46,324 nucleotides of DNA from the IMG/VR virus record IMGVR_UViG_3300025120_000108, positions 1-46,324 of that record; one strand, written 5' to 3'. Every line of letters starts with the position of its first letter. Positions within the stretch are counted from its first letter, which is position 1. Below the pieces are notes generated by a model. That model was not told the DNA's origin, made no database searches, and was given only the letters and a program-made list of their open reading frames with translations. Source of the stretch: a virus. Below are positions 14,001-30,334 of this stretch, one piece after another. The position numbers and the translations under genes were made by a program.

Positions 14001-17000
14001 TTCTACATCAGCTAAAACAAATGGTGGCGTACCTGTAAGTAATAATGCTGTAGGTAAACTACCTTCAGGTAGAAAAACTAAAAATTACGACTATTCTTTA
14101 AACACTTTTGAAGTAGGTACTAAAGATTTTCATATGAATTTAAATATATACGAATCATTACCTACTGACGTACATAGAAGACTTAATAGGGGAGCTGATG
14201 GAGAAAGAACATCTTTAAATCCAGAGGACCACACTGTTAATCTTATGCAAGAAGTATTTTTAAATAGCAATACTATACAGTTTAACCCTAAAGATGGTGG
14301 TGTTGGTGAAGCTTATCATAAAGGATGGAGAAATTTAATAAGAAAAAATGCAGGTGGAGATAAAAAAGAAAACGATTATATAGAAAAACAATTAAAAAAT
14401 AATGAACCTTTAAGAGATGATGTATCATTAGATCAAATTGACGTTAGAATATTAGATAGAATATTGAGCAGTTCTAGTATTAAAACTAAAACAGCAGAAA
14501 GTATTATAGAAAAATTATTATTTAGAAATGACGATAGTTCTTTAGTAAGAGATTACGAACAAGATGTTAATAGCAATTTTATGAGTACTATGATAAAAGA
14601 CGTATTTGCAGATAATAATTTCAGTCATGTTGCATTAGCACAAAAGGGTAATAGTGAGTGGGTTCAGAAAACATTTAGACAGTACGTAATGGGTAGGCTC
14701 ACAAAACCAAAAATAAAATATACATATAAATCTATTTTAGGTCCATACGATTATAAAATTACTGGTAAAAAACAAAAGTATTCATCTGCTAAAAAAGGTT
14801 TAGCTAAAGATGAATTTATGTTAACTGAAGGTGCAGAAAACTTATTTTATGTTAAAGTACAAGGTAAGGAATATAGTTTAGGAGAATGGTGGGCTGATTA
14901 CAGAGGTTTAATAGATAGTCCTAGTAATTATAGAAGCTGGACTAATGCAAAAAAGAAAGCATGGAAAGATGCACAGTATGCATTGATTAATCGTTCTCCA
15001 GTTATGACATCTGGTAATGTAAGAGCTTTAAAATTTGTAGGGTTTGTAAGGGGGCAAGGTGTAAAAACTAAAAGAGGTACATCTTTAATTACAGCAGAAA
15101 ATAACGACAGATATATGGGTGGTGCTGATAAAGATATTGACTCTGCACACGTATCTTTTGGTATGCCTAAAAATATAGTAGAAGGATATAAACAAGAGCA
15201 CGTACGTAGTGAAATGCAAGTAGGGCAAAAAGATTCAGGCAAACCATTAGACCTTAAAGATCAGAAAATAAATGAAAGAGAAGCTGGTGCTAAATATGAT
15301 GCTGATAATAAAAGTGATACAAAAAAAGTATTAGAACATTTAGATTTAAATACTAGATTAGAAGCAGCTGGTAATATGGCTTTTGGTAAAGATACTATAG
15401 GTATAATACACAATATGCATGCACATGCTAAAACTATAATAGATTTATTAGCACAAAAAAATCCTAAATACCAAACTAAGGAAGGTAGAAAATCTATAAC
15501 GGAGTTTTTTCAAAACTTTTTAATAAGAAATGCTTCAGTATCTAACGCCTATATAGATGCAGCAGATGCTAGATATTTATGGCCAGCAAAACAAACAGAG
15601 ACTAAAATATATAAAGACTTAGATGCCTTCTTTGGGGAATCAAGTAAAGATGTATTAAGTACTATACGTGAATACCATACTGCTTCTATGAAAGGTATAC
15701 TTCCAGAAAACAAAAGTTATGCAGATGTATCAAAAGAAATGTTAGATTTATATGGAGATGCTACTAGTTATAAAAAAATTACAGCTGAATTTTTAAAAGA
15801 TATGAAATTAGAAATAGATCCATTTGCTGGATATGACAAAGAAAACATATTTAATTTGAATCAAAAAGCTATAAAAGCTATAATGGACGATCCTATAGGA
15901 CAGTTTTTTGGCATAAGAGATACAGTAGATATGTTTAATGCAAATAGATTATTAACTGCAGCAGAAAAAGAAAACATATACAATCATCCACACTTTCTTT
16001 ACAATAAATTGAATGTAGTAGGTGTGTTAAAATCTATACTTAAAACAAATGAATTTGTATCTAATCATACTGCTAATAACTTAGGTCTAAATGCTAAAGA
16101 TTTAAAATTGTTTGCAAGAGAAATAGCACATATAGCTTATGCACAAAAACAAGGGTTTATACATAAAACTAAAATAGCTAAAAATTACAATATTGATAGT
16201 GAAAGAATGAGTTACAATGAACAAGTTCTTTTATCAAAAGAATATTTAAAACAAGAAGTTTCTCTATTTTTTAAAAACAAATCTGGTAACTTAGATAAAA
16301 GTTTATTGAATAAATTATCAAAAGATATAGAAAATTTATATGACTATTGGCACATTGCTTTCCCTTATTTAGATTTAAATTATTCTGGTATGGATGTAGC
16401 TAAAAGTTATTCTGGAAAGAAAAAAGATCTTAAAGTAAGTGTACATAATAGATATGTTGCTTATGTAAGACAGGGAGAAAAAGTACGACAAGCTTTAGAT
16501 AAAAGAGATAAGAACGGTAATTTTAAAAACGGTAAAGATAAACAAAATTATGAAAAACAAAAAGAAATTTTAGGTTCAATGGAATGGGCTGCAGAGGGAT
16601 TAGTAAATAGAGGTGCTAACAATATGCAACGTTCTTCATCTATATCTAAAGAAGTAAGGGTTGAGATGAATGAATTTTACCAAAAATATCTTGAACTTAC
16701 TAATGCTAAAGATTCTACAATACAAGAAATGGAATTAAATAATTTAGTAGAACCTTATATGAGAGTAGGCTTAGAAAAAGATACTGCACCAGGTGAAGTA
16801 GTATCGAGTCATATTGAACAAACTGGTAGATTTATTAAAGAAAGTTTAATAGACTGGGAAACAATAGAAAATATTACAGTAAACTTACCTAAATCTATTA
16901 AAAATTTAGAAAAAGAAGTTAAAAAATTAAACATAACAAATGAAGACGTAATATTTGAAGCAAATAGATTCGGTGAAAATGTTAACAAAATATTGTCTCG

Positions 17001-20000
17001 AGGTCATAATGAATTAGCATTGCAAATTACTGAAATGTATACTGGTGTTATGCAAAGATTAGATATAGTTGCAAAACAATCCTTAGAAGATGCGGACTAC
17101 GATAGAATAAAAATACTTAATAATATAATAGAGAACAGATATATAGGTACTCATAAAGAATGGTCGCAAAGAATAGCTTCACATAGAAAGTTGTTAAAAG
17201 AGTGGAAAGATAAGGGGTTAGATCCAGACAATAATGTATTACCACCAGATATGATGACTGACATGATGTTTCCTACTGAGTTAAATAAGTTTTGGAGTAA
17301 GTATGAAAAAGTATTTAAAGTAGAAAGAGTACAAATTGTAGACAAAGATTCGGGCAAGTTTAAAGAGTATGGAGCTAGAGTACCTTCTAGTACTATAGAA
17401 TTTTTAGGTGAAACAGTAGGAAAAATGAATGATGCTGGTAATGCACTAAAAAAAGCTTATGATAATTATTGGAATGGTTTATTAGATACGATTAGGCCTA
17501 CAGATGAAGCATTATTTGTTAAACATAAAGAAAAACTATTTGGTCTTGCAGCTATGGAACGTCAATTAGGTATTGATTCTACTGGTAAATATGACGGTAA
17601 AACTACACCTAGAGATGTAGAACATGAAGTAACTAAAAAAGAGTTATTAGATAGATTGGAAATAGCACAATCTGAATTTAATGAAATACCAGATGGTGGT
17701 ATATTTATTATAAAACCAAGGTCGGGCAAAGATACAAGAAAAATGACTAAGCGTGATATGGTAGAAACTATTAAAGAAGAGTTATACAAACCTTTATTTA
17801 CTAAAGCATTAAATGATATAATACGTAGTAATTATCAAAATTTATCAGAAGTATTAAATCAAAATTTAATTAAATCTAATTTAGATTATGAAGCATTTTT
17901 TGGTGGAGGAGAAAATATAGTACAAAAAATTATATCAGGAGCACAATCAGGTGCAGATGTTGGTGGATTAGAAGCAGCTAGACAATTGGGTATAGAGTTT
18001 AATGGATTAGCACCTAAGCCTAAAAAAGGAAAAAGTGGTATATTTAGATCTGAGTTAGCAGATGGTATAACAGATGCTCAACAGTCGGCTTTAGTTAGAA
18101 AATATAACATACAAATAGATAGTAACTCCAGTTATCAATCTAGAACAAAAAAGAATATTAGAAGATCGGATGCTACTATTGCATTTAGATTGCAAGATAG
18201 TCCTGGAACAGATAAAACTATAGGATTTGCACAAACTGGAGCTTGGAAAGCGGGGGATACAACACCAGGTATATACAATGCTAATCCTAAAATTGCTAAT
18301 AGTAAACCTTTATTGGTATTAAATAATGCTAAATTAAATAAAGAAAACATATCTTTAATACGTCAATTCATATTAAAGAACCCTGGTACTTTAAACGTTG
18401 CTGGACATAGAGAGAGTAGCAATATGGGATTACAAAATCAAGTGCGTTCTTTATTGTTTAAATCTATTAAAGGTTTAAAACAACCACATCCTTGGAGTGA
18501 TAAGTCTCACCCTAAACATTTTGAATATAAGTTAAGTCAATTATTTTTAGACAGTCACGGTTTAGTGGATATAAATAAAATACGTATTGTTCATGAATAT
18601 AATATGCGTACAAAAGAATTGCAAACAGGTGAACGTGTTATAGAAAGACAATTTCATGAAGATGATTTAACGTTTATGCATAGACAGTTAGATATATATG
18701 AAAGAGTAATATCGTTTTTAAAAGAAAAAGAAATACCTGGAAAAGAACAGTTTATTGTAAGTAAAGGAAATAATTTTGAAATAGATTGGAATGCTTTAAG
18801 TAAAAGTAAAAAACTATTTAAAGCTAGCAAAAATGACGCTAAAGGTTTAGAAGAATCAATTAGAAGTATGAATCAACAATATATAAATCAAATAGCAACT
18901 GGTATGATCGGTACTAGAGAAATTAACGGTGAACTATTTTCTAATAGATATTGGTCTCTTATGGGTCAACAAGACACTAAAGCTGGTACTAGATATGTAA
19001 AAGAGGTGCATATACCTAATGAAATTAAACGTATAAATAAATTAGTAACTAAAGATTTTCAAGGTGAAGATAGATATTTGCATCAAAGACTTGAAGACAA
19101 ACTCATAACTTTAAAAGATGCTAGAATGGAATTGATTACTAATATGGTTCAAAAATTAATAAAAAATCCAGGTGCAGATACAGAAGTTTATCACGAACAA
19201 GTACAAGAAGCTTTGTCTAGTTTATCTACAAGACAATTAGGCTTAGATAAACCTGGTGCTTATAAACCTACGTTTACAAGAAGAAGACCAACCATTCCAG
19301 TTGGTAACTATGTTATAAATGATACAGTACCTTTGAGATACTTATCGAATTTATCTTCGGGTGTAACTCAAGGTATAGCTGCATTACAAACAAGAGTAAA
19401 TTTATTAAGTTTTAGAGAGAATACTAGGTTTAATAAACAAATTGGTAAAGCTGAAGCTGAAGCTTGGCATTTAAAAATGATAGATATAGTTCGTGGATAT
19501 ATGGGATACCCTACTACTCGTAATATAGACTTACATGGTATAACTAAAAAGGATCAAAGCTTGTTAGTTAAGTGGGCTCAAACAGGATTTGATAATTCAT
19601 TTTACCAAAAAGCTAGACCTAATCCAGTAGAACGAAAACTTATGAAAGATTTTATACAGCAGACTACATTACGTAGAGAAGAGGTAGCTTCTATAGAAAA
19701 AGAAGTTAAAAAGAAATATGACAGAGCATTAAAAGAGAGATTAAAAACATTAGCTAAAGACATTCCTGTACAAACAGATAAGATTACAGATGATGAAAAG
19801 AAAGAAGCTAAAAATTATGTATTAAGAACTAAACAATCTTTTACAAATAAAATGAAAAAAGAAATAAAAGAAAGAATAGAAGACGCAGAAACTGATATAC
19901 GTATTGAAGCATTAAAAGATAAAAACGTAGATAAAACAAATATTAAAAATTCTTTTAGATCTTTTTATAGTGATGAAACTGTTGGTAACTTAGGATTAAA

Positions 20001-21417
20001 ATTAGATAAAACTGTAAATGATTTATTTGGTACTGATGTCAATAATAAAATACCATTCTTAGAAAAAATGCCAGACATAGATAAGGACCCACAAGGTAGG
20101 CATAGAGCGTGGGTTAGAAGAGCACATTGGTTCTCCGATCTTGAAGGTAAATTTGAAATGATGGCATTGTTGGCACACCCTAAATCAGCTGTAGCTAATG
20201 CTTATGGTGGTACTACTAATACCATAACTGATGTTGGTTTTAAACATTTCTTTGAATCTATGAAAGGTGAAAAACTTGTTAATGATCATTTCAGAGGTAT
20301 AAAATATGAACGATTTAATGCTAAAACAAAACAATGGGAACCTCATAGTATTGAAAACAAAGGTGATGTTTACGAATATTTTGAGTTAAGAGGTTTTGTA
20401 GAAAACAATATTAGAGATGAGCTAATTATGTTTAAACCTCCTGGTGATACACAATGGAGAAATTTTTCTAATCACGTTGCTAAGAAAATATATAATTTTA
20501 ATATACGTAATTCAGTACACACTGCTGATCCTAATATTAATAAAAATAATAGATTAGCTAGAAAAGAATTTAGAGAACTAACTTTGGCTGAAGCTTCTAA
20601 GAGTTTTAATATAAATAAAAAAGTTGTAGAAGCAGGTTCGTTTTTTATGAAACATTCTGAATATTATCTACGTATGCAATCTGCTATTGCACATTATTTA
20701 AAAGCTAAAGAATTGTTTACAGACACTAATGGTAATACAGAAGTATCAGAAGCATTTTTATTAGAATATGCTAAAAAAGGTGTATCTGCATCACAATTTA
20801 TATATCACGCTACCAATAGACCTAACTTTGCTAACACTGCTGTTGGTAGAATTATGACAAGATTCCATCCGTATTCATGGAATAGCATAAGAAGACGTGC
20901 AGATGTTATAAGAGAAGCACAATTAGTAGATGGTAATAAAGAGTTTGAAGCTAGTAAAAGATTTGAAAGACAGTTAAGTGCTGATCTGTTTGCTTCTGTT
21001 ATGGCTACAACATTTGCTGCAAGTATATTTGAATACGCTTTATCACCTCCTATGAATTGGAGTATGGATTTTGCACAATTAATGTACGGTGATTCAAAAG
21101 AAAGAGAACGTGCGTTTTACAATACTTATGGTCACCCTTTATTAAATCCTTTACAAATAATTTCACCACCAGTATCCAGGTTTGTAGTTCCAATAGTTGT
21201 TGGTTCTATAAATGGAGACTTTGAAAACTTTGCAAAATATACTTCATGGACTTGGGCACCTTTTGGAAGAGTAACAAGAGATCTATTGCGTACTGCAGAA
21301 ACACCTGAAATGGTAGGTGAGTGGATGTTTGGTGTTCCATTGCATAAATTTGGACAATATGCTAGAAGAAATGAAAAAATTAGTGATGAAAACATAGAAA
21401 GTGCAGATGAGGAGTAA
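11005..21417 (+). CDS. Giant 3470-residue internal/polyvalent virion protein with embedded SLOG (YspA-like) domain
   Basis: 10.4 kb, 22% of the genome, without a frame break. Residues ~99-120 are hydrophobic (LVGLAPGVVMGGIGMLSG), like pore-forming segments of internal virion proteins. Residues ~2308-2485 form a distinct domain: KIISGAQSGADVGG, a 'Rxxxx-N-xxxSDAT' segment near 2380-2395, a Lys-Pro-Leu-Leu-Val strand, and NVAGHRES at 2464-2471. This is the pattern of the YspA/'putative molybdenum carrier' branch of SLOG nucleotide-binding proteins. The C-terminal ~200 residues (RIMTRFHPYSWNSIRRR near 3281) resemble domains shared by large phage polyvalent proteins. Probably ejected with the DNA; other regions unassigned. 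Confidence 0.72.
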   Translation: MITNPLINQLNTKLQEGAINQSSYALQLKRIYDRSHSGLSVDDVKYLEQRLTDLNVPFAKEEASDGLIKQTISGFIEGFTTFGFADEPDTGTEKIFNNVAHLVGLAPGVVMGGIGMLSGASKVVSANLKAQAKKTGDKQLRKLADNLNEVSKSASKKQSKVQEYLSKIAEKTTRVDSEGKVLFSLGKQTGFNPLTQKPIYDLKSIPGRLADKTQELGLSFLGKNQEDLMQFFTKGVLRNRFSREKVGNIINESVHVGLLMAYSQHPFATRNTEGFHQTMMAGMHGGLAGGIFGSIGQYANISTLLNSGSKSVRAIGEGMVRSTARNLSYSTTLEREAVVNTMLKSTSGAGYGLGTSIMNDLPPEEVIYETLMGIFFSVNGKPGFENRANKDILDRSRAIPRSKQTEKSMKGWLYRQEWYQNETESYKAYMRRHVDAIYKEQEKIIGTFPLAKLEFQKVLSKALQDGVVNEKQVRDIMDNTKVEEGMFAVMEKVNEAYNRKLDVDYTPPPETDAYSKTKFINLVKLTDQLALRAEITATNEVDFPVDRLSFFTKRIYKTLKRKKARDYSIDNIQKGVDTIWKDSLKRNPGNEKKQVDDFVKSFQDLVASDSNIAKRVIPKDAELKKIRQLAHTLREFSAKKNVSILRLIDKDGKVSKSLPILDDLPAENPSGAPINIQTSGNRLQKNLNEVFKKGFKNIPDFEMSSIDYLEVMQTKNIVNQKGEKKPVVKRVFISPLSKDPFTGEVKINAEKFQLIETDLNTDSKFIFGGISDTGKLDIRSFPWARTKFTYDKGTRKRTENPNFLSKQDRLQIAEFVSTKDKKGKLIDPTKIKLQADNIVGTYIYRLISLNMIKNPNQITKEYLLNRSTVINYVNAEINNGTVGVNKLQKYLNQVDKTEIPFIEDVAGEKYRGIIVKDPKSSIKGEADSGVDGVVVISNKRFDFQAKNMGIDKLASQAKGTLFSGADGIHGDITGKFAYKRADNIDQAYLEKNNLDFYIYSTSAKTNGGVPVSNNAVGKLPSGRKTKNYDYSLNTFEVGTKDFHMNLNIYESLPTDVHRRLNRGADGERTSLNPEDHTVNLMQEVFLNSNTIQFNPKDGGVGEAYHKGWRNLIRKNAGGDKKENDYIEKQLKNNEPLRDDVSLDQIDVRILDRILSSSSIKTKTAESIIEKLLFRNDDSSLVRDYEQDVNSNFMSTMIKDVFADNNFSHVALAQKGNSEWVQKTFRQYVMGRLTKPKIKYTYKSILGPYDYKITGKKQKYSSAKKGLAKDEFMLTEGAENLFYVKVQGKEYSLGEWWADYRGLIDSPSNYRSWTNAKKKAWKDAQYALINRSPVMTSGNVRALKFVGFVRGQGVKTKRGTSLITAENNDRYMGGADKDIDSAHVSFGMPKNIVEGYKQEHVRSEMQVGQKDSGKPLDLKDQKINEREAGAKYDADNKSDTKKVLEHLDLNTRLEAAGNMAFGKDTIGIIHNMHAHAKTIIDLLAQKNPKYQTKEGRKSITEFFQNFLIRNASVSNAYIDAADARYLWPAKQTETKIYKDLDAFFGESSKDVLSTIREYHTASMKGILPENKSYADVSKEMLDLYGDATSYKKITAEFLKDMKLEIDPFAGYDKENIFNLNQKAIKAIMDDPIGQFFGIRDTVDMFNANRLLTAAEKENIYNHPHFLYNKLNVVGVLKSILKTNEFVSNHTANNLGLNAKDLKLFAREIAHIAYAQKQGFIHKTKIAKNYNIDSERMSYNEQVLLSKEYLKQEVSLFFKNKSGNLDKSLLNKLSKDIENLYDYWHIAFPYLDLNYSGMDVAKSYSGKKKDLKVSVHNRYVAYVRQGEKVRQALDKRDKNGNFKNGKDKQNYEKQKEILGSMEWAAEGLVNRGANNMQRSSSISKEVRVEMNEFYQKYLELTNAKDSTIQEMELNNLVEPYMRVGLEKDTAPGEVVSSHIEQTGRFIKESLIDWETIENITVNLPKSIKNLEKEVKKLNITNEDVIFEANRFGENVNKILSRGHNELALQITEMYTGVMQRLDIVAKQSLEDADYDRIKILNNIIENRYIGTHKEWSQRIASHRKLLKEWKDKGLDPDNNVLPPDMMTDMMFPTELNKFWSKYEKVFKVERVQIVDKDSGKFKEYGARVPSSTIEFLGETVGKMNDAGNALKKAYDNYWNGLLDTIRPTDEALFVKHKEKLFGLAAMERQLGIDSTGKYDGKTTPRDVEHEVTKKELLDRLEIAQSEFNEIPDGGIFIIKPRSGKDTRKMTKRDMVETIKEELYKPLFTKALNDIIRSNYQNLSEVLNQNLIKSNLDYEAFFGGGENIVQKIISGAQSGADVGGLEAARQLGIEFNGLAPKPKKGKSGIFRSELADGITDAQQSALVRKYNIQIDSNSSYQSRTKKNIRRSDATIAFRLQDSPGTDKTIGFAQTGAWKAGDTTPGIYNANPKIANSKPLLVLNNAKLNKENISLIRQFILKNPGTLNVAGHRESSNMGLQNQVRSLLFKSIKGLKQPHPWSDKSHPKHFEYKLSQLFLDSHGLVDINKIRIVHEYNMRTKELQTGERVIERQFHEDDLTFMHRQLDIYERVISFLKEKEIPGKEQFIVSKGNNFEIDWNALSKSKKLFKASKNDAKGLEESIRSMNQQYINQIATGMIGTREINGELFSNRYWSLMGQQDTKAGTRYVKEVHIPNEIKRINKLVTKDFQGEDRYLHQRLEDKLITLKDARMELITNMVQKLIKNPGADTEVYHEQVQEALSSLSTRQLGLDKPGAYKPTFTRRRPTIPVGNYVINDTVPLRYLSNLSSGVTQGIAALQTRVNLLSFRENTRFNKQIGKAEAEAWHLKMIDIVRGYMGYPTTRNIDLHGITKKDQSLLVKWAQTGFDNSFYQKARPNPVERKLMKDFIQQTTLRREEVASIEKEVKKKYDRALKERLKTLAKDIPVQTDKITDDEKKEAKNYVLRTKQSFTNKMKKEIKERIEDAETDIRIEALKDKNVDKTNIKNSFRSFYSDETVGNLGLKLDKTVNDLFGTDVNNKIPFLEKMPDIDKDPQGRHRAWVRRAHWFSDLEGKFEMMALLAHPKSAVANAYGGTTNTITDVGFKHFFESMKGEKLVNDHFRGIKYERFNAKTKQWEPHSIENKGDVYEYFELRGFVENNIRDELIMFKPPGDTQWRNFSNHVAKKIYNFNIRNSVHTADPNINKNNRLARKEFRELTLAEASKSFNINKKVVEAGSFFMKHSEYYLRMQSAIAHYLKAKELFTDTNGNTEVSEAFLLEYAKKGVSASQFIYHATNRPNFANTAVGRIMTRFHPYSWNSIRRRADVIREAQLVDGNKEFEASKRFERQLSADLFASVMATTFAASIFEYALSPPMNWSMDFAQLMYGDSKERERAFYNTYGHPLLNPLQIISPPVSRFVVPIVVGSINGDFENFAKYTSWTWAPFGRVTRDLLRTAETPEMVGEWMFGVPLHKFGQYARRNEKISDENIESADEE

Positions 21418-22519: not shown

Positions 22520-22721
22520 CTGTTGACCACAAGATTGATTTTCTATCTTTAAACCATGCCATAGTAAATTGTAAAGATAACTTACCTATATCAAAGTAAA
22601 GTGTGATAGAGTTAGCAATAAACCAAGAAACGCCTATTGTTACTTTAAATAACCACAACAAAGTTATAGAATACATTGTTCTTTCTAGCTCTTTGTTATA
22701 GCGTCTATTAAATTTAATCAT
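22500..22721 (-). CDS. Small membrane protein
   Basis: 73 residues; its ATG overlaps the primase-helicase stop as ATGA. Residues ~17-47 are hydrophobic (ITLLWLFKVTIGVSWFIANS), long enough for one span with possible re-entry, preceded by a basic N-terminus and followed by a Lys/Trp-rich soluble tail. Placement inside a replication operon suggests membrane anchoring of replication proteins, or an unrelated early host-takeover function. No family recognised. Confidence 0.62.
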   Translation of the reverse strand: MIKFNRRYNKELERTMYSITLLWLFKVTIGVSWFIANSITLYFDIGKLSLQFTMAWFKDRKSILWSTGEKVDA

Positions 22722-24529
22722 ATTAAACTACTTTCATTTAATTGCTGAAAAGTAAAGTCATCTGTGTTAAAGAATACAGTCATTTCAAACCTATCTTCGT
22801 CTCTTGATTTCTCAGAAACGACTTGTCTTACTTTCTCTGATCTTTCACCTTTAATAACTAACACTTTGTCAGCTTTCTGTACTAGATTAGACGAACCTTT
22901 TAATGAATGCAATGCAACTACATTACTAGCTGCACTAGCTTTATTTAAATGTGATATAGCAATAATGATTATATTGTTTTTCTGTGCTATTTGTTTTAGC
23001 CCATCAATAACCATATTTTGTTTTTCTATTTCACCTCTATTAAAGTCTACTTGCACTTCATCAGCAGTATCTACTACTAATACATTTGGTTGATATTCTG
23101 CAACGATTTTCTTTACTGAATCTATTCTTGGTGCTATAGTCATTAGTTTAACGTGCCCTAATTTGTCTTTAAGTGTAAAGTCTGGATTAGTTTTATATTC
23201 ATTATTAATCCAATCTTGACTTTTACCTATAGCCATTTGACCAAAGCGTCTGAAAGTTAATTCTTCTTTCATTTCTAAAGATAGATACAGTACTTCTTTC
23301 AATGCCTTTGTTACTAAGTATTGTACAAATGCTGATTTACCCATACCTGTGTCGCCAGAGAAAACAATTAGTTCACCTGGTTTAAATGTATATTTGTGTG
23401 TATTAAACAAAGCACCTACATCTATTGAACGTTTAGTTAAATCTTCACTTATATATTCACGAAGATTCTTTTCTAATTCATCAATACTATTAATTTCTAA
23501 TACATAGTCTTTATTTTTAAAGTAGATACACTTAGGATCACAGTACTCAGCCATAATATGATCTTTGCAACTGTATACATAATTTCCTTCATATGTATTG
23601 TTTACAGATCTTATGACTTCATTTTCTGGTAATGTTCCGTCACTCCACGTTAGTAAGCCGTTTAAAGCTACTAAATATGGAACACCAGAACGTTTGTACG
23701 AGCTTGCCATACGCATTAACTTCATATTACGAGAACCTTTTATTGGCCCTTCATTAAATATGTGTTGCATACACGATACTACATTAGATACATCACCTTT
23801 TCTACTATCACCATTAGTGACAGCAGCTATTGTTGGTGAAGCAACTACCATTGATTGTAAATATGGATCAAACTGTATATCTTCAGGTTTAAACATGTTA
23901 TCATAAAACCCTGGATACTTCTTTGACCATTTAGTGTATGCTGTTTTACTGTTAGCAAACTTTTTAATATCACTATATGAATAATCTTGCAATAAATTAA
24001 TAGGAATAAAAACTTTATATAAACCTGTTTTGGTATTTAAAGCCCATTCACTACGTATTATTCTTGTTTTATCATATATAGAATCACCAAAACTAAAATG
24101 TTTTTCTAATGTAAATTTTAATTTTGTATGTAATTCTTTACTTGGTTGCAAACCAAATACATTTTTTATTTTGATATGATAACCACTACCACTAAACCAT
24201 ATGTTAATATCTTCTGCCATAACTCCTTTATCTAATATTTCAGATAAACAATTCATAACATAAGGATTAAATGATTTGTCGTCTATGTCACCTTTATCAA
24301 TGTCTAAATGTATGTAATTTAAATAAACTAATCCGTTAAATCCTTTTACAGACTTTTCTTTATCTACGTGCTCGGTAAATGATTCATCAAAATGGTAATA
24401 AGAACGATACATTTCTTTCTTAAATGCATTTTTTTGCACCATATCATTGTAGATATTTATGTTACCAGTAAAATTTCTATTACTGATAGAACCTTCTACT
24501 ATTTCTACGATAGCTTCTCTATTTTCCAT
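22718..24529 (-). CDS. AEP-type primase fused to DnaB-like helicase
   Basis: 603 residues. The N-terminal domain has archaeo-eukaryotic primase motifs: LDIDKGD (75-81, D76 and D78) and SGSGYH (113-118). A middle PriCT-like region has Cys 253, 321, 330 and 334 (SCMQHI, SCKDHIMAEYCDPKC), which could hold zinc or an Fe-S cluster. The C-terminal RecA-like helicase has Walker A GDTGMGKS (392-399) and Walker B VLVVDTADE. It would unwind DNA and lay primers in one polypeptide. No phage polymerase was found, so a host polymerase probably extends the primers. Confidence 0.88.
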   Translation of the reverse strand: MENREAIVEIVEGSISNRNFTGNINIYNDMVQKNAFKKEMYRSYYHFDESFTEHVDKEKSVKGFNGLVYLNYIHLDIDKGDIDDKSFNPYVMNCLSEILDKGVMAEDINIWFSGSGYHIKIKNVFGLQPSKELHTKLKFTLEKHFSFGDSIYDKTRIIRSEWALNTKTGLYKVFIPINLLQDYSYSDIKKFANSKTAYTKWSKKYPGFYDNMFKPEDIQFDPYLQSMVVASPTIAAVTNGDSRKGDVSNVVSCMQHIFNEGPIKGSRNMKLMRMASSYKRSGVPYLVALNGLLTWSDGTLPENEVIRSVNNTYEGNYVYSCKDHIMAEYCDPKCIYFKNKDYVLEINSIDELEKNLREYISEDLTKRSIDVGALFNTHKYTFKPGELIVFSGDTGMGKSAFVQYLVTKALKEVLYLSLEMKEELTFRRFGQMAIGKSQDWINNEYKTNPDFTLKDKLGHVKLMTIAPRIDSVKKIVAEYQPNVLVVDTADEVQVDFNRGEIEKQNMVIDGLKQIAQKNNIIIIAISHLNKASAASNVVALHSLKGSSNLVQKADKVLVIKGERSEKVRQVVSEKSRDEDRFEMTVFFNTDDFTFQQLNESSLI

Positions 24530-24768
24530 CCCTTTGCTTTTCCTTTCACGTCTTTAATTTCTATTAGTTTAATTCCCATCCTAGCTAAATCGTTACTTGA
24601 ACGGATTGTTCTAAATGCTCTAGAATATGTACTTGGCGTATGTACTTTCTGATGAGCAAGTCTTCCATAATTACCTATTTGTGTTTCAAAATCGTAACTA
24701 TAGAAGACTTTAGATCTGTTCTTCATTTGGTTTTGTATCCAATAAAGAACTATTTTTTTAGCTGTCAT
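24505..24768 (-). CDS. Small putative winged-helix protein of the replication operon
   Basis: 87 residues; start overlaps the upstream stop as TAATG. Basic helices (STYSRAFRTIRSSNDLARMG) followed by short strands (IKLIEIKD, GWKIEKL) resemble a winged-helix DNA-binding domain, with the wing at the C-terminus. Sandwiched between SSB-like and primase-helicase genes, it may load the helicase or mark an origin. Family not recognised; the fold is inferred. Confidence 0.62.
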   Translation of the reverse strand: MTAKKIVLYWIQNQMKNRSKVFYSYDFETQIGNYGRLAHQKVHTPSTYSRAFRTIRSSNDLARMGIKLIEIKDVKGKAKGWKIEKLS

Positions 24769-25277
24769 TAAAACGGTAAGTCTTCAACAGCTACTGATTT
24801 ACCGCCAACTTGTACAGTATCTTTTTTGTAGTTTTTAGGATAACCTTTTTCTACTTGTGCTTTAAACTTAGATTCTAAGTCCTCTACATTATCCCAACTT
24901 GACATAGTACTCCAGATTGCTCTTTTGTATTTACCAGTAGATTCATAGCTTAAACATGCAACTTGTGCATCATTTAAAGCATCTACATTAATTTCACCTA
25001 CATCAGATACATTCAGATCTTTACCAGCTGCTAAATACAATGTATTTACATCATCTGGAAATTTCAGATCTGTTACAATACCATTTACATCTTTTTCAAA
25101 GTTTTGATTGATAAAACATGTATAGCTGTAGCCATTTCTTTCATCAGTCAATGTTACTTTTAAAGTAGTATCATTGTATTGTGAGTCTTGTTGTGTTACT
25201 TCACTAATTTTACATTTATTAATGAAATAGTTTTTATCATTGCTAGAATTAGCAACTTTTGTTCCCGTAATCGCCAT
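24768..25277 (-). CDS. Single-stranded DNA-binding protein, SSB-like
   Basis: 169 residues, GGAG SD. It is strand-rich, as an OB-fold would be, and ends in VEDLPF, matching the acidic C-terminal tip of bacterial SSB (DDDIPF) that docks partner proteins. It lies between the annealing protein and the primase-helicase with one-base overlaps, a typical SSB position. The OB domain is not obviously homologous to E. coli SSB by eye, so the call rests on the tip, size and context. Confidence 0.7.
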   Translation of the reverse strand: MAITGTKVANSSNDKNYFINKCKISEVTQQDSQYNDTTLKVTLTDERNGYSYTCFINQNFEKDVNGIVTDLKFPDDVNTLYLAAGKDLNVSDVGEINVDALNDAQVACLSYESTGKYKRAIWSTMSSWDNVEDLESKFKAQVEKGYPKNYKKDTVQVGGKSVAVEDLPF

Positions 25278-25885
25278 TATTTTTTCTCCTTTTTTACAGT
25301 TTTAGGTTTATTTTTGGCTTTTTGTGCAATTTCTTGCTCAATTTTAATTACACCCATAAAATGTTCCATTGCTTTAGACCATTTTATTTTAGTATCGTAA
25401 TAATCAGCACCACGTCTTTCAATATGTGTGCTTATATGATCATCTGGCATATGTATTTTAGCTAAATTGAACATTCTATCTAAAACACTCAGCAAATCTA
25501 CTGTTACTGCTGATGTTTTTTGATTTAATTGTGCATTAACTACTTCTTCTGCACTTGCAAACGCCATATCACCACCAAATCCTGCAAATGCTAATGCACG
25601 ACCTACTGCTGATGTTTCACAATTTTCCATTGCTGAAGTTTTGTTAATGAAAGTACCATTGTCTCGTTCTGCTGCTAATCCAGTAAAACAAATCTCTGGT
25701 TCTTGTAATGGATTTGGTGTTATTGTAGCTTGTATTACATACTCATTACACATATCACCTGTTTTTGAATCTACGATATTACTCACAGATATTAATTCAG
25801 TCTTTATTGAACATCCTTCAAATGTATTTCTATATTCTACTAGACGATCTTTGACGAATGTATATTTTGATACATCGAATCCCAT
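25277..25885 (-). CDS. Single-strand annealing protein (Rad52/Erf-like)
   Basis: 202 residues, SD GGAGAAATTAAA. The hallmark is MENCETSAVGRALAFAGFGG followed by ASAEEV (residues ~86-114), the conserved core of a phage annealing-protein/Sak-like group. The C-terminus is a Lys-rich tail (KNKPKTVKKEKK), suited to DNA binding. It would anneal complementary single strands during recombination-dependent replication, together with the SSB-like protein next door and the resolvase-like nuclease. Which annealing superfamily it belongs to needs a profile search. Confidence 0.7.
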   Translation of the reverse strand: MGFDVSKYTFVKDRLVEYRNTFEGCSIKTELISVSNIVDSKTGDMCNEYVIQATITPNPLQEPEICFTGLAAERDNGTFINKTSAMENCETSAVGRALAFAGFGGDMAFASAEEVVNAQLNQKTSAVTVDLLSVLDRMFNLAKIHMPDDHISTHIERRGADYYDTKIKWSKAMEHFMGVIKIEQEIAQKAKNKPKTVKKEKK

Positions 25886-25966: not shown

Positions 25967-26608
25967 TTACTTAGTCTCTAGCATCATTGTAGGAAAATGA
26001 AACGACAATTCCTTGTTGTACGGCTGTTCTGTAATCAATTTCCTTATGGAATTTGCTATAAAACTACCACTCATATTACTACAATATGATGTTGCTTTTG
26101 CATTACATGGTTCACTACTTCCATCTTCATCCGAATACCATGTTTTTAGGTATTGTCCTAGTGTTGGATTAGTAAACACATACTGTTGATAATGTTCTGC
26201 ACCCATTCTACCATCTATAAGATACAATGGTTTCTGTTGCTTCATTATATTCTTGACTGCATCAAGTCTTGACTCCATAGAATCAAAACCTAAGATTATA
26301 ATGTCATTACCGTGTGGTATGTAATGCTCAAATAAACCATCTACGCATCCAATGGTTATATCTGCACTTATTGTCTGGCATATTGTTCTTAGGGCTTTTG
26401 TTTTAGATTGTTCTAAATCAGAAATCCTAAATTGCGACACACCAAGATTTTCTTCACTTACTCTATCCATATCATATAAATATAAGTTATTGCCACCCAT
26501 TCTAACTATTTGAGTAGCTGCGGCACTACCTATAGCACCGCAACCTAGTATGTGATATGTATATTCGTTGAAGTTACTCACTATTGAACTATAACGTTGT
26601 TCCAACAT
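25967..26608 (-). CDS. ThiF/E1-like adenylyltransferase (Ub-activating type)
   Basis: 213 residues from ATG 26608, chosen because GGAGG lies eight bases upstream; longer starts are in the JAMM gene and lack a site. It has the Rossmann nucleotide loop GCGAIG (22-27), the acidic strand end YDMDRV (D46, D48), N54 in the ENLG segment, and FDSMESR (D109, R114). C168 (SSEPCNA) and C176 (SYCSN) are candidates for the thioester or metal Cys. E1-like enzymes adenylate the C-terminal Gly of a ubiquitin-like protein. No other sulfur-carrier enzyme is present, so the 29444 Ubl is the natural substrate. Confidence 0.88.
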   Translation of the reverse strand: MLEQRYSSIVSNFNEYTYHILGCGAIGSAAATQIVRMGGNNLYLYDMDRVSEENLGVSQFRISDLEQSKTKALRTICQTISADITIGCVDGLFEHYIPHGNDIIILGFDSMESRLDAVKNIMKQQKPLYLIDGRMGAEHYQQYVFTNPTLGQYLKTWYSDEDGSSEPCNAKATSYCSNMSGSFIANSIRKLITEQPYNKELSFHFPTMMLETK

Positions 26609-27512
26609 TGTCGTATCCTCCATATATTGGTTCTGTATCTTCACTATCTATATCATTTTCTATGCATTTATCTTCAAAAGACCATTTAGTCCCTTTTCTG
26701 TAAATCCAATCGTCTGAATGAAATTGAGCCATAGCACCAAACAAGAACTTTTCATGTTCTGGATCTTTAACTAAACCACATCTTAATTCACTTTTACGTT
26801 GTTTTAATTCGTAATTGAGTTTATTAACTGACATTTGATATTCTTGATAATCTAGATTTGTTAAGTAATCCATCAATATATTATCTACTTTAGACTCAAC
26901 TTGCACCATTTCTAAATCTAATGGTGCTTGATTTTGCCACACACTTAACTGTTTGTGAGTATGTTTAGATAAATTTACTTGCTTTGGATAAACAAACTGT
27001 GAAGGTTTATCACACAAATTATCTACATTATCTCTAATTGACTTAGGTACTACTTTAGCTTTAGGCTTATTAATAATATCCATTTCTACATCTTCATGCA
27101 TTTTGTAAGGATGCCACAAATTAACTCTTAACTTGTATTCTTGTTTTAAGTTAATAACTAAAGATATAGACATTGGACCACTACTAAATTCGTCTATTGC
27201 TGTTAAGTCTGTTCCAGACCAAAACACTTCCATTGTGTGATGGCTATGCCACCATACAAACTGAAATGGTTTATCTTTCATTTTCATAGCAGTTTTAACA
27301 TAATATTCAGCTAATGCACTTTTATCTAACACAGTATTACCACCACTTATTTCTTGTTTTAGTATTACTGGTTTATGCATTTTCCATTTATTATCTTTAT
27401 CTTGTTCTGCTATAAGGAATCCACCAATTTCTGAAGTATGCTCATCATAAGCATATCTTGCGTAATTTTGTAATGTATTCCAGTCTTTATTACTCATGTA
27501 GAAATTAGCCAT
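26589..27512 (-). CDS. JAMM/MPN metalloprotease (deubiquitinase-like)
   Basis: 307 residues. The N-terminal JAB domain has the complete motif: E28 in SEIGGFL, then WWHSHH with H89 and H91, and S99 and D102, giving HxH-x7-S-x2-D exactly. This zinc site cleaves isopeptide or peptide bonds after a ubiquitin-like C-terminus. Residues ~155-307 are an extra charged helical extension. The gene overlaps the E2-like gene by eight bases and the E1 gene by 20. It could mature the Ubl or remove it from targets; since the Ubl already ends in GG, removal is more likely. Confidence 0.92.
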   Translation of the reverse strand: MANFYMSNKDWNTLQNYARYAYDEHTSEIGGFLIAEQDKDNKWKMHKPVILKQEISGGNTVLDKSALAEYYVKTAMKMKDKPFQFVWWHSHHTMEVFWSGTDLTAIDEFSSGPMSISLVINLKQEYKLRVNLWHPYKMHEDVEMDIINKPKAKVVPKSIRDNVDNLCDKPSQFVYPKQVNLSKHTHKQLSVWQNQAPLDLEMVQVESKVDNILMDYLTNLDYQEYQMSVNKLNYELKQRKSELRCGLVKDPEHEKFLFGAMAQFHSDDWIYRKGTKWSFEDKCIENDIDSEDTEPIYGGYDNVGTTL

Positions 27513-29328
27513 TATTATTCCTCCTTGTATTAGCTTGTACCCACATTGCCATTTCTCGTTCCAATTGACTTTGATTATCTTCTATGATGCTGTCAATTAC
27601 TTCTTCTACTTCATCTGTACTTATTGCTGTATCACTGTCATTTAAGTTATCAAAATTAACTTCATCATTATGCCATCCGTTACCAAATGTAGGTAATTCA
27701 TCTGCATCATCTGCATCAACATAATCTAATGTTTCTTTTGTGCTTATCCATTCTATAAAAGCCATAGTATCAGCTTCTTTTGCAACATTATTGTATTCTA
27801 AACAGTTATACGAACTAGAATGTGTCATCATTGCAAACCTAGCATTAATTAGATGTTCTGCTAAAAATTGTTCATACCAATCAACTGCACCAACATCATA
27901 CATATCTAACCACATAGAAGTATATTCTTCATCATATATATTACGATATTTATTTTCTAAGTATTGCACTATTTTATCTTCTAAATTATCCATACCAATT
28001 AAACTTAGATAATTATCTTTTATTGTTAAATCCACATCCCAATAACCTAAGTAACATTGATACATAATAGATAACCTTCTATGTGCATCATTACTATTGA
28101 AGCCTATTTGTTCCCATACTTTGGCCATTTCTGGTCGTTTTTCTAAAAACATATAGTTAATGCCTTGCAATGGATTAGATCTTGTTGTGTGCCAAACATT
28201 CCACGCATTAAACAATGACAATACACCGTATACATCCATTTGTAGAAAAGATGTATTAAATTCACTAGTTATGTCACCGTGACAAACATTTCTCCAATGT
28301 TTTTCTTCAAAATCAACATATCTACCAACAGCACTAGGCATTACATATTCTCTTATTCCAATATAAGGATATGCTTTAATAGTGTAACTACTACTATAAC
28401 CTGATTGTATGCCTAATGGATCGCTATGAGCTTCATGTATACCTTCATAACCTGCACCAGCACCCCATATACTACAACTTCGTAGTCCAGCTCTGTGACT
28501 GAGGCTATTTTGATATCTGTTATGAACATTACTACTACTACTTAAGTTTGAAGATGTTACTTTTTTGATATCGTTGTTGCAATATATCATTTTGTTAATA
28601 ACTTCAGAAACTTTAAAGTAGAATGTCATGTGTATTGGTTCTGGTATTTCATAGTTGTATACTATTTCATCATTACGATCAACAAAACTCATTACTGGTT
28701 TATTCCATGTGTATTTTTGATAAACATAAGTTTGTTCGTATTTGATACAATCTATTTCAGCTGGTGTTAGATCTCTACCATTTATTCGTAATTCATCAAT
28801 ATGATCTTGAGGTATTCTGTACATATCAATTTCTATACTAATATCACCATAACTAGACACTGTTTCGGCTATATTTTTTTGTGTGTCTAAATGTTTTAAG
28901 AAGCTTTGATATGCATCTTTAAACACATCTTCATTGCTATCAAATCCTATGTTATTAGCTCTCAATCTTTTGAGCTTTTCATCTAGATCTAATACTTTTT
29001 CTGTGAATTGCTTTTTATACCATTCAGCATTGTTAGCTCTACTAAATAGTGTTTGTATACTACCAGTAGGTTTATTGTATTGATGAAATCTAGTATCTAT
29101 ACAATCTAATATTTTTTGTTTGTAACCAGAACCCCATCTAAATGTCTTAGTAACATGCAATGGTTCTAATGGTTTTAACTCTGATCTGTTGCCGTAACAC
29201 CAATTAGTAACCATCCACCTATTATTGATTACATCTAAGTCATCAAGTATTTCTTTTTGAGGCCCTAATCGTATTGTGTCTGATACTTCCTTGTAATTAG
29301 GTTCTCTATTTTCTATTTCTATTTTCAT
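27505..29328 (-). CDS. Large protein with candidate E2-like (Ub-conjugating) segment
   Basis: 607 residues, SD GAAGGA. The middle contains YPYIGIREY (320-328), then HWRNVCHGDI (344-353) with C349, then a helix ending in SNPL (384-387). The order 'hPhi... -C-x-G-(D) - helix - NPL' recalls prokaryotic E2 families found beside ThiF and JAB genes, where the Cys carries the Ubl thioester. The N-terminal ~300 and C-terminal ~200 residues match nothing I know; the tail is very acidic. Its place between Ubl and JAMM genes supports the E2 reading, but sequence support is moderate. Confidence 0.55.
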   Translation of the reverse strand: MKIEIENREPNYKEVSDTIRLGPQKEILDDLDVINNRWMVTNWCYGNRSELKPLEPLHVTKTFRWGSGYKQKILDCIDTRFHQYNKPTGSIQTLFSRANNAEWYKKQFTEKVLDLDEKLKRLRANNIGFDSNEDVFKDAYQSFLKHLDTQKNIAETVSSYGDISIEIDMYRIPQDHIDELRINGRDLTPAEIDCIKYEQTYVYQKYTWNKPVMSFVDRNDEIVYNYEIPEPIHMTFYFKVSEVINKMIYCNNDIKKVTSSNLSSSSNVHNRYQNSLSHRAGLRSCSIWGAGAGYEGIHEAHSDPLGIQSGYSSSYTIKAYPYIGIREYVMPSAVGRYVDFEEKHWRNVCHGDITSEFNTSFLQMDVYGVLSLFNAWNVWHTTRSNPLQGINYMFLEKRPEMAKVWEQIGFNSNDAHRRLSIMYQCYLGYWDVDLTIKDNYLSLIGMDNLEDKIVQYLENKYRNIYDEEYTSMWLDMYDVGAVDWYEQFLAEHLINARFAMMTHSSSYNCLEYNNVAKEADTMAFIEWISTKETLDYVDADDADELPTFGNGWHNDEVNFDNLNDSDTAISTDEVEEVIDSIIEDNQSQLEREMAMWVQANTRRNNNG

Positions 29329-29331
29329 TAT

Positions 29332-29426
29332 CTTTCCTTCAGTTGAGAATGAAGGGTAACTATCGATCTACAGTGAGCTATCTATTATTACTTATGAATA
29401 ATGTAGAGATTTGTTGTTACCCTTCA
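29332..29426 (-). promoter_or_regulatory. Candidate RNA switch before the E2-like gene
   Basis: The Ubl and E2-like genes are separated by 115 bases. In the minus-strand RNA, TGAAGGGTAAC (29426-29416) pairs perfectly with GTTACCCTTCA (29360-29350). The same CCTTCA can instead pair with TGAAGG at about 29342-29337, which contains the SD of the E2-like gene (loop of eight bases). The two pairings exclude each other, so one hides and the other frees the SD. The loop also holds an ATCT-ATTATT / AATAAT...AGAT stem. Confidence 0.55.
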
Positions 29427-29443
29427 AGGTTTAAGTTAACTGA

Positions 29444-29677
29444 TTATCCACCAGTTTTATTTCTTGCTACAATAGCAAGTGTAGCACCGTCTTCTAAGAC
29501 TTTGCTCTCGTCTAACCATTCTACACCATTGTAATTCATTGTTGCAGTTGTTGGCACATTACCTAAATGTTCTCTAAGATGTGCAATGGTAGTAACATTA
29601 GATGGTAATGATGTATCTACAAAAGCAGATGTATTCCACATTAATCTAATTGTTGTTGTTGTATCCGTGTTACTCAT
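29444..29677 (-). CDS. Ubiquitin-like beta-grasp protein ending in Gly-Gly
   Basis: 77 residues with strong SD GAGGAGG; start overlaps the upstream stop as ATGA. The layout fits the beta-grasp fold: strand IRLMWN, turn, VTTIAHLREHLG helix, strand ATMNYNGVE, then VLEDGATLAIVARN and the end Lys-Thr-Gly-Gly-stop. 'DG-hydrophobic-strand-...-GG' at the very C-terminus is the mark of ThiS/MoaD/ubiquitin-like modifiers that E1 enzymes adenylate. It resembles short prokaryotic Ub proteins found with ThiF, E2-like and JAB genes, all of which follow here. Sulfur-carrier activity is the alternative. Confidence 0.8.
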   Translation of the reverse strand: MSNTDTTTTIRLMWNTSAFVDTSLPSNVTTIAHLREHLGNVPTTATMNYNGVEWLDESKVLEDGATLAIVARNKTGG

Positions 29678-30138
29678 GTTGTTTCCTCCTCGGAAATTGT
29701 ATTATTAATATTAATATGATCTTTTATCGATTCTGCTTTCTTTAACAAGAAATAAGAATACTGTAAGTAATTGATCGCACTTGTTATGTTAAGAGTATAT
29801 TCATTAACATAATTTTCTTTGACACTATTATTTTTAGCATAATGTCGTAATTCTGATGTCTGTATTTTAAGTGCTGTGCAATATACTAAACTATCTTGTA
29901 TTTCTTCTATTGCTTCACTTAAATTATTTCTATCTAAGTTATCTGCTTTAAATATAGGAACTTGTTCACCATATTTCTTTGCACCAACTTTTAGTCTTTT
30001 TTCTATTTGATTTAGCATTTTAGTCATATAAGAACCTATATCACTCCATGTAACTATCTTATCTGCTTCTAACGCTTCACCACTCATGTACATACTGTTT
30101 TTAATCTCATTTAATATGTAGTTATTGTTACTGATCAT
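29674..30138 (-). CDS. MazG-like nucleotide pyrophosphohydrolase or related helical protein
   Basis: 154 residues from ATG 30138 (AGAAGG upstream). All-helical. The segment VGAKKYGEQVP then NNLSEAIEEIQDSLVY has the E-x2-E-E-x2-D pattern and 'KYG' lead-in of phage MazG-like or dATP/dGTP diphosphohydrolase-like proteins, which bind magnesium and cleave NTPs or ppGpp. Only this half of the usual motif set is clear. It is translationally coupled (ATGA) to the Ubl gene, so it may belong to the same pathway or simply be a neighbouring early gene. Confidence 0.5.
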   Translation of the reverse strand: MISNNNYILNEIKNSMYMSGEALEADKIVTWSDIGSYMTKMLNQIEKRLKVGAKKYGEQVPIFKADNLDRNNLSEAIEEIQDSLVYCTALKIQTSELRHYAKNNSVKENYVNEYTLNITSAINYLQYSYFLLKKAESIKDHININNTISEEETT

Positions 30139-30334
30139 GTAATGTAACCTTCTTTCTGAATTGTTCAATCCATGTTTTTTTACTATTTTTTAACGGAACT
30201 CCTTGAAATATCCACCATGCACCATATTTTTCTTTAAACTCTATTGCCATAGCTTTACGCCATGCATCATTATGCACTATTTTAGTTTCAGGGACTAATT
30301 TAGGGTTGTTATTTTTATCATATTTAATAATCAT
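30128..30334 (-). CDS. Small hypothetical early protein
   Basis: 68 residues from ATG 30334, which overlaps the upstream stop as ATGA and has GAGG nine bases before it. Contains a Lys/Asn-rich start, a helix around WRKAMAIEFKEKYGAWW, and a basic end. No family. Coupled into the same operon. Confidence 0.62.
   Translation of the reverse strand: MIIKYDKNNNPKLVPETKIVHNDAWRKAMAIEFKEKYGAWWIFQGVPLKNSKKTWIEQFRKKVTLHDQ

Follow-up and report, generated by a model that had tools for sequence, protein, structure and literature searches.

A candidate ubiquitin-like conjugation cassette carried beside replication genes in uncultured tailed phages

Four adjacent minus-strand genes in the IMG/VR virus record IMGVR_UViG_3300025120_000108, analysed here over its whole length of 46,324 bases (the window), encode a ubiquitin-like protein (Ubl) ending in Gly-Gly, a 607-residue protein with an E2-like segment, a JAMM metalloprotease and an E1-like adenylyltransferase (Table 1). 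The original prediction had described these genes with their motifs, and all four are present where it had placed them. The window phage is tailed, with matches to terminase, portal and major head proteins, and no lysogeny markers turned up among the window proteins searched, which covered part of the open reading frames (ORFs). It is probable that the four genes constitute a reversible, phage-encoded Ubl-conjugation system, which sits within the early/replication region as a single accessory module. We also lean, with less assurance, towards a broader proposal: that the cassette belongs to a virus-restricted lineage of complete Ubl conjugation systems, common to a large family of uncultured phages and to the crAss-like phages of gut Bacteroides, which would reversibly tag host proteins, and perhaps the phages' own, during infection.

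Comparison across viral genomes confirmed that the four genes are real and form one unit. An E1 profile identified relatives in 315 IMG/VR viral contigs, and co-occurrence was counted over 93 distinct E1 loci, each count being taken over the loci with enough sequence. The JAMM gene lies upstream of E1 in 70/70 distinct loci, the E2-like and JAMM genes accompany E1 in 50/50, and all four genes are found in 35 of 38, the exceptions being L082, L083 and L120. L083 is on the same contig as L208, and L120 on the same contig as L169, and both L208 and L169 hold a diverged Ubl at the Ubl position; the L082 contig also holds L209, with coordinates identical to those of L208. Diverged Ubls of this kind, missed by the profile, occur in L158, L159, L180, L208 and L169 as a small protein that has K-G-G or K-R-G-G at or close to its C terminus and is encoded immediately upstream of the E2-like protein. 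The same four genes recur in the same order where the E1s are only 54-69% identical. All four are under purifying selection, E1 the most strongly, with ratios of nonsynonymous to synonymous substitution (dN/dS) of 0.03-0.07 for E1, as slow as the helicase, 0.17-0.20 for JAMM, 0.32-0.38 for the E2-like gene and 0.19-0.66 for the Ubl. The faster change of the Ubl and E2-like genes is as expected if their partners vary, with recombination a possible contributor. We take the cassette to lie beyond chance because of this purifying selection, the recurrent order at such levels of E1 identity, and the invariance of the catalytic positions described below.

The cassette is not carried by every member of the phage family. 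Terminase-based sampling yielded 25 loci, several of them near-duplicates, that extend for 9 kb or more on the relevant side; E1 was present in 16. In L176, L184, L205 and L210 the genes for the helicase and for a protein resembling single-stranded DNA-binding protein (SSB) are in place and other small genes fill the interval, in which none of the four cassette genes was found. The whole records that hold these loci and L156, some of them fragments, gave no match to E1, JAMM or the E2-like protein. Since all four genes are absent together in related phages, the cassette is an accessory module, gained or lost as a set. As a separate observation, the L176 interval encodes a DUF6915 protein (1.8e-42), and similarly placed genes of 342 residues in L176 and 338 residues in L205 give weak DUF6878 matches.

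This absence en bloc speaks more for an accessory role than for a function essential to replication. The probable purpose is to modify proteins of the host or the phage at an early stage of infection, as a means of host takeover or counter-defence. A different purpose, compatible with the same mechanism, would be conjugation directed to replication proteins of the phage itself, such as the SSB-like protein and the helicase, as a regulator of replication. The neighbourhood agrees with it, with a helicase/primase gene downstream on the same strand in 60/60 distinct loci having at least 4.5 kb downstream, an SSB-like gene downstream of E1 in 54 of 81 distinct loci, and the crAss-like and Flavobacterium phage versions located near primase and uracil-DNA glycosylase genes. 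However, since related phages keep the same SSB-like and helicase genes without any of the four cassette genes, replication does not require the cassette, and we regard replication control as a possible but unlikely purpose. Host tagging, counter-defence and the tagging of replication proteins are not separable by sequence.

Among the components, the Ubl is well supported as a beta-grasp modifier with a C-terminal Gly-Gly, as had been predicted from the letters. Its AlphaFold2 model, built with 22 relatives, has a mean predicted local distance difference test (pLDDT) score of 81.5 and the beta-grasp order b-b-a-b-b-b. It finds MoaD, Caldiarchaeum ubiquitin, NEDD8, SUMO and Urm1 as PDB fold matches, every one with E above 0.001 and a probability near 1. 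In agreement with the model, Pfam ThiS is matched by 8 of the 22 relatives (best 1.9e-4). The Ubl profile also matched WD-40 repeats among PDB sequences, and these matches were rejected as short repeat artefacts. The motif K-[T/V]-G-G is present in all 54 distinct sequences found by the profile; 25 of them end at Gly-Gly, as does the window Ubl, whose K-T-G-G end is already the mature form, and 29 run on for 1 to 117 residues, the longest tails being perhaps miscalled ORFs. With residues past Gly-Gly in 29 of the 54, a protease would have to expose the Gly-Gly of these, as fits a precursor.

The window E1 matches Pfam ThiF above its cut-off (1.8e-17), and in profile searches its best match is UBA5 (4e-14), followed by MccB, UBA6 and ThiF. 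The residues G34xG36xI38G39, D58xD60, K81, D121 and C180 are invariant, also in the E1s of crAss-like phages, and Cys180 appears, when judged by eye, to stand where ThiF has its catalytic Cys. The protein combines an adenylation motif with a candidate catalytic Cys, as expected of the E1 in prokaryotic Ubl-conjugation systems. The GCGAIG motif and E1-like character of the original prediction were upheld, and its start codon was not: relatives begin at ATG 26623, giving 218 residues, rather than at the GTG at 26644, from which the residue numbers used here, including Cys180, are counted, and 26623 is the more likely gene start. The JAMM protein carries E28 and the predicted full motif, H89-S90-H91-x7-S99-x2-D102, and E28, H89, S90, H91, S99 and D102 are invariant in 47/47 aligned relatives. 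Its profile matches are to Caldiarchaeum Rpn11 (2.8e-6) and eukaryotic Rpn11 (about 1e-4), with PADLOC JAB at 4.8e-5 and Pfam Prok-JAB at 1.1e-3, under the cut-off of that model. UBA5, the E1 for UFM1, and Rpn11, the proteasomal JAMM, are therefore the closest solved sequence relatives of the two phage enzymes; they are eukaryotic or archaeal proteins, whereas the phage E1 and JAMM are small and phage-borne.

The E2 candidate is the 607-residue protein, in which Cys349 is invariant among 68/68 distinct full-length relatives. The alignment of the family (A1) holds only C349, W376, P386 and C509 as invariant positions. A Cys-His-Gly-Asp segment had been singled out in the window copy (C349-H350-G351-D352); its Cys is the conserved part, and His350 is clade-specific, with L, F, T, M, Y and further residues at this position elsewhere in the family. 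In 62 of the 68 relatives, C-x-[GSDN] comes after an HP[YF]I-like segment; some relatives read HPYI...G-[ST]-V-C-L-D, and in one subclade (e.g. L113) the sequence is HPYI...G-T-V-C-L-D. Eukaryotic E2s have HPNI...G-x-I-C-L-D, close to the HPYI...GTVCLD of this subclade. From this we infer that Cys349 is an E2-type active site, and we assign the protein provisionally as an E2 on the basis of its position, the invariant Cys349, the E2-like motif of its relatives and their constant co-occurrence. The assignment is kept provisional because the structural model is unreliable near Cys349 and no fold match was found. In 39 of the 68 relatives (e.g. L014, L021 and L010, the last a short one of 427 residues), by loose matching, a cluster of the C-x4-C-x5-C type lies near the C terminus, which suggests a metal-binding module; the window copy does not have it.

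Several results weigh against the conjugation reading. For the 607-residue protein, neither Pfam nor PDB sequences nor PDB folds gave a match, and its AlphaFold2 model has a mean pLDDT of 60.6, falling below 50 at residues 284-351, around Cys349. Six strong BFVD matches (E down to 2.8e-16) were uninformative, all being to unnamed viral proteins. Where the eukaryotic HPN motif has Asn, the phage proteins have Tyr or Phe. Profile comparisons with four eukaryotic E2 sequences gave borderline results: P 0.24 for the whole family, and P 0.013 for the GTVCLD subclade, which had been picked for its motif and was outscored by 1 of 200 shuffles. Neither an E3 nor a protease partner was recognised, and the proposed role draws only on the accessory distribution, the quicker change of the Ubl and E2-like proteins, and the gene context.

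The protein might then be a substrate, adaptor or scaffold, with E1 itself delivering the Ubl to targets and no E2 involved. Its large size, its diverged N- and C-terminal regions and the missing confirmation of an E2 fold or profile are in keeping with such a role. The invariant Cys inside the E2-like motif of its relatives and the presence of the gene with JAMM and E1 at every one of the 50 loci speak for an E2, and we consider a non-E2 role unlikely. Of the E2-like protein as first proposed, the conserved Cys, the motif in relatives and the co-occurrence stand, and the fold was confirmed neither by profiles nor by the low-confidence model. The phage-encoded set as a whole is accordingly well supported in its Ubl, E1 and JAMM, and provisional in its E2.

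Under the conjugation reading, the Rpn11-like JAMM would first cut tailed Ubls after Gly-Gly, as suggested by the variable tails that come after an invariant K-x-G-G. The minimal UBA5/ThiF-like E1 would then adenylate the Gly-Gly end and take up the Ubl as a thioester on Cys180. The Ubl could next be handed to Cys349 of the E2-like protein, which may join it to an amine of the target, perhaps choosing targets through its fast-evolving extra regions. Finally, the JAMM protein could take the Ubl off again, making the modification reversible.

Sulfur transfer is the main mechanistic alternative. The small protein, its C terminus trimmed by JAMM, would be adenylated by E1 and converted to a thiocarboxylate, from which sulfur would pass to a nucleic acid or small molecule; the 607-residue protein would act as the sulfur-accepting enzyme. 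The closest named matches of the E1 and Ubl include ThiF and MoaD/ThiS, and comparable Ubl-E1-JAMM sets have been described for sulfur metabolism (PMC1779556). However, the window E1 scores 63.8 bits against the ThiF equivalog cut-off of 159, and lower still against MoeB, by which membership in the ThiS/ThiF and MoaD/MoeB sulfur-carrier systems was rejected. Conserved CxxC pairs were not found in E1, its best PDB match is UBA5, the JAMM is nearest to Rpn11, and the invariant Cys of the 607-residue protein lies within an E2-like motif. A sulfurtransferase was not recognised among the window proteins searched, several ORFs lying outside the search, so that its absence is not shown. Together these points make a sulfur carrier improbable.

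We call the window phage family marine as a label only, after the sample numbers of records related to it. In 84,980 cellular species genomes, a pattern scan with tblastn as its second step detected no marine-type E1. The crAss-type E1 gave four loci in cellular genomes: one is a short weak match, and the other three lie on metagenome-assembled genome (MAG) contigs no longer than about 12 kb that may belong to phages. At L226, on a 12 kb contig of a Clostridium MAG, the crAss-type E1 is 44% identical, and this contig may come from a phage binned with the bacterium.

In crAss001 (gp79-78-77-76) and several other crAss-like (Steigviridae) phages, the gene order equals that of the window cassette, and Flavobacterium phage Fpv1 carries a similar but interrupted set (gp58-57-54-53). 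The crAss-like and Flavobacterium phage E1s are about 28-30% identical to the window E1, and a profile made from marine E1s alone gives them 81-111 bits, against 63 or less for cellular sequences. They form one lineage with the window E1, with an ultrafast bootstrap (UFBoot) value of 100 against eight cellular E1-like sequences, in a small tree of short sequences that was used for the phage/cellular split only. The JAMM motif is kept in these phages. The crAss001 protein gp79 starts with a TLGELK segment and is weakly similar to the Ubl in its N-terminal part, with an hhalign score that none of 200 shuffles reached; it also has S-G-A or S-G-G with a long tail behind it. Profile comparison detected no similarity between crAss001 gp78 and the 607-residue protein; the two are matched by position and by a conserved P-C-x-G-type segment. 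In crAss001 the only annotations of these genes are ThiF, metalloprotease domain and hypothetical proteins. A likely version of the cassette would be present in the cultured phages crAss001, of Bacteroides intestinalis, and Fpv1, of Flavobacterium psychrophilum, where its role is directly testable.

The cassette had been likened to Bil and to PRTRC-type operons, and neither comparison held when their defining features were tested. Bil, an antiphage conjugation system of bacteria, has the same four kinds of part, namely Ubl, E2, JAMM and E1, and its JAMM trims the Ubl (PMC11354881). BilA has two beta-grasp domains, BilD two adenylation domains and a Cys domain, and BilB a CEHH motif (PMC11354881). 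In contrast, the window set is phage-encoded, with a single-domain Ubl of 77 residues and an E1 of one 218-residue domain, and the CEHH motif is not conserved in alignment A1 of the 607-residue protein; Bil membership was therefore ruled out. The same four component kinds are also found in the class 6d Ub-JAB-E1-E2 operons of plasmids and integrative elements (PMC1779556). The PRTRC protein B has an H-A-P...V-C-x-G segment comparable to that of the 607-residue protein. We take PRTRC to be these class 6d operons. PRTRC membership was ruled out, with E1 at 22.3 bits against a cut-off of 144.75 for the ThiF model TIGR03736, JAMM at 12.7 against 101.8 for the protein A model TIGR03735, and no match to Prok-E2_D (PF14460) in the window record. 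The PRTRC ThiF also falls outside the phage E1 clade of the E1 tree. The Cap2/Cap3 pair of cyclic oligonucleotide-based antiphage signalling systems (CBASS) was rejected as well, since Cap2 is an E1-E2 fusion and the window E1 a separate protein, which PADLOC E1-E2 models match through their E1 part only.

Among phage-encoded parts, the tail assembly genes of lambdoid and T1 phages include TAPI, a Ub-like protein, and TAPK, a JAB peptidase (PMC1779556). This pair is of the same two kinds as the window Ubl and JAMM but comes without E1 or E2 and lies among tail genes, whereas the window set is in the replication region. Open-licence literature yielded nothing on ubiquitin-like conjugation in phages, crAss-like phages included, beyond this tail TAPI/JAB pair, which is not proof of absence. 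To our knowledge, bacterial ubiquitin-like systems have been genes of hosts or mobile elements, several of them antiphage. If the conjugation reading is correct, the complete set carried here means that viruses of bacteria also use ubiquitin-like tagging and bring their own reversible machinery.

Table 1 Features of the cassette and its surroundings in the window.
Feature	Position	Strand	Basis
Ubl, 77 residues, ends NKTGG	29444..29677	-	ORF; model, Pfam and motif evidence
Candidate E2-like conjugating enzyme (putative function), 607 residues, invariant Cys349	27505..29328	-	
JAMM metalloprotease, 307 residues	26589..27512	-	motif, profile matches
E1-like adenylyltransferase, 218 residues, candidate catalytic Cys180	25967..26623	-	
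Spacer with hairpin between Ubl and E2-like genes	29329..29443	-	arms 29350-29369 / 29407-29426
Putative MazG-like protein	29674..30168	-	GAKKYGE...EAIEEIQD segment, weak unnamed-PHROG matches
Possible single-strand annealing protein	25277..25885	-	PHROG 11717, function unknown
Possible SSB	24768..25277	-	acidic VEDLPF end and position
DnaB-like replicative helicase/primase	22718..24529	-	PHROG 19 6e-26, Pfam DnaB_C 1.4e-11

The placement beside replication genes was confirmed for the DnaB-like helicase, and the SSB and annealing-protein calls remain tentative; a Pfam search with the possible SSB gave no match. The putative MazG-like gene lies just upstream of the cassette in the window and overlaps the Ubl start by 4 nt. 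The hairpin in the spacer between the Ubl and E2-like genes is an inverted repeat with an RNA fold of -22.7 kcal/mol (z -2.36), and by eye the spacer is more alike among three relatives than the adjoining coding DNA. Elsewhere in the window, a protein of 3,470 residues (11005-21417, plus strand) contains a cpYpsA (SLOG-type) domain at residues 2309-2485 (PF12694, 5.6e-17). The domain possibly binds a nucleotide messenger, and the size and position of the protein suggest a giant virion-associated protein.

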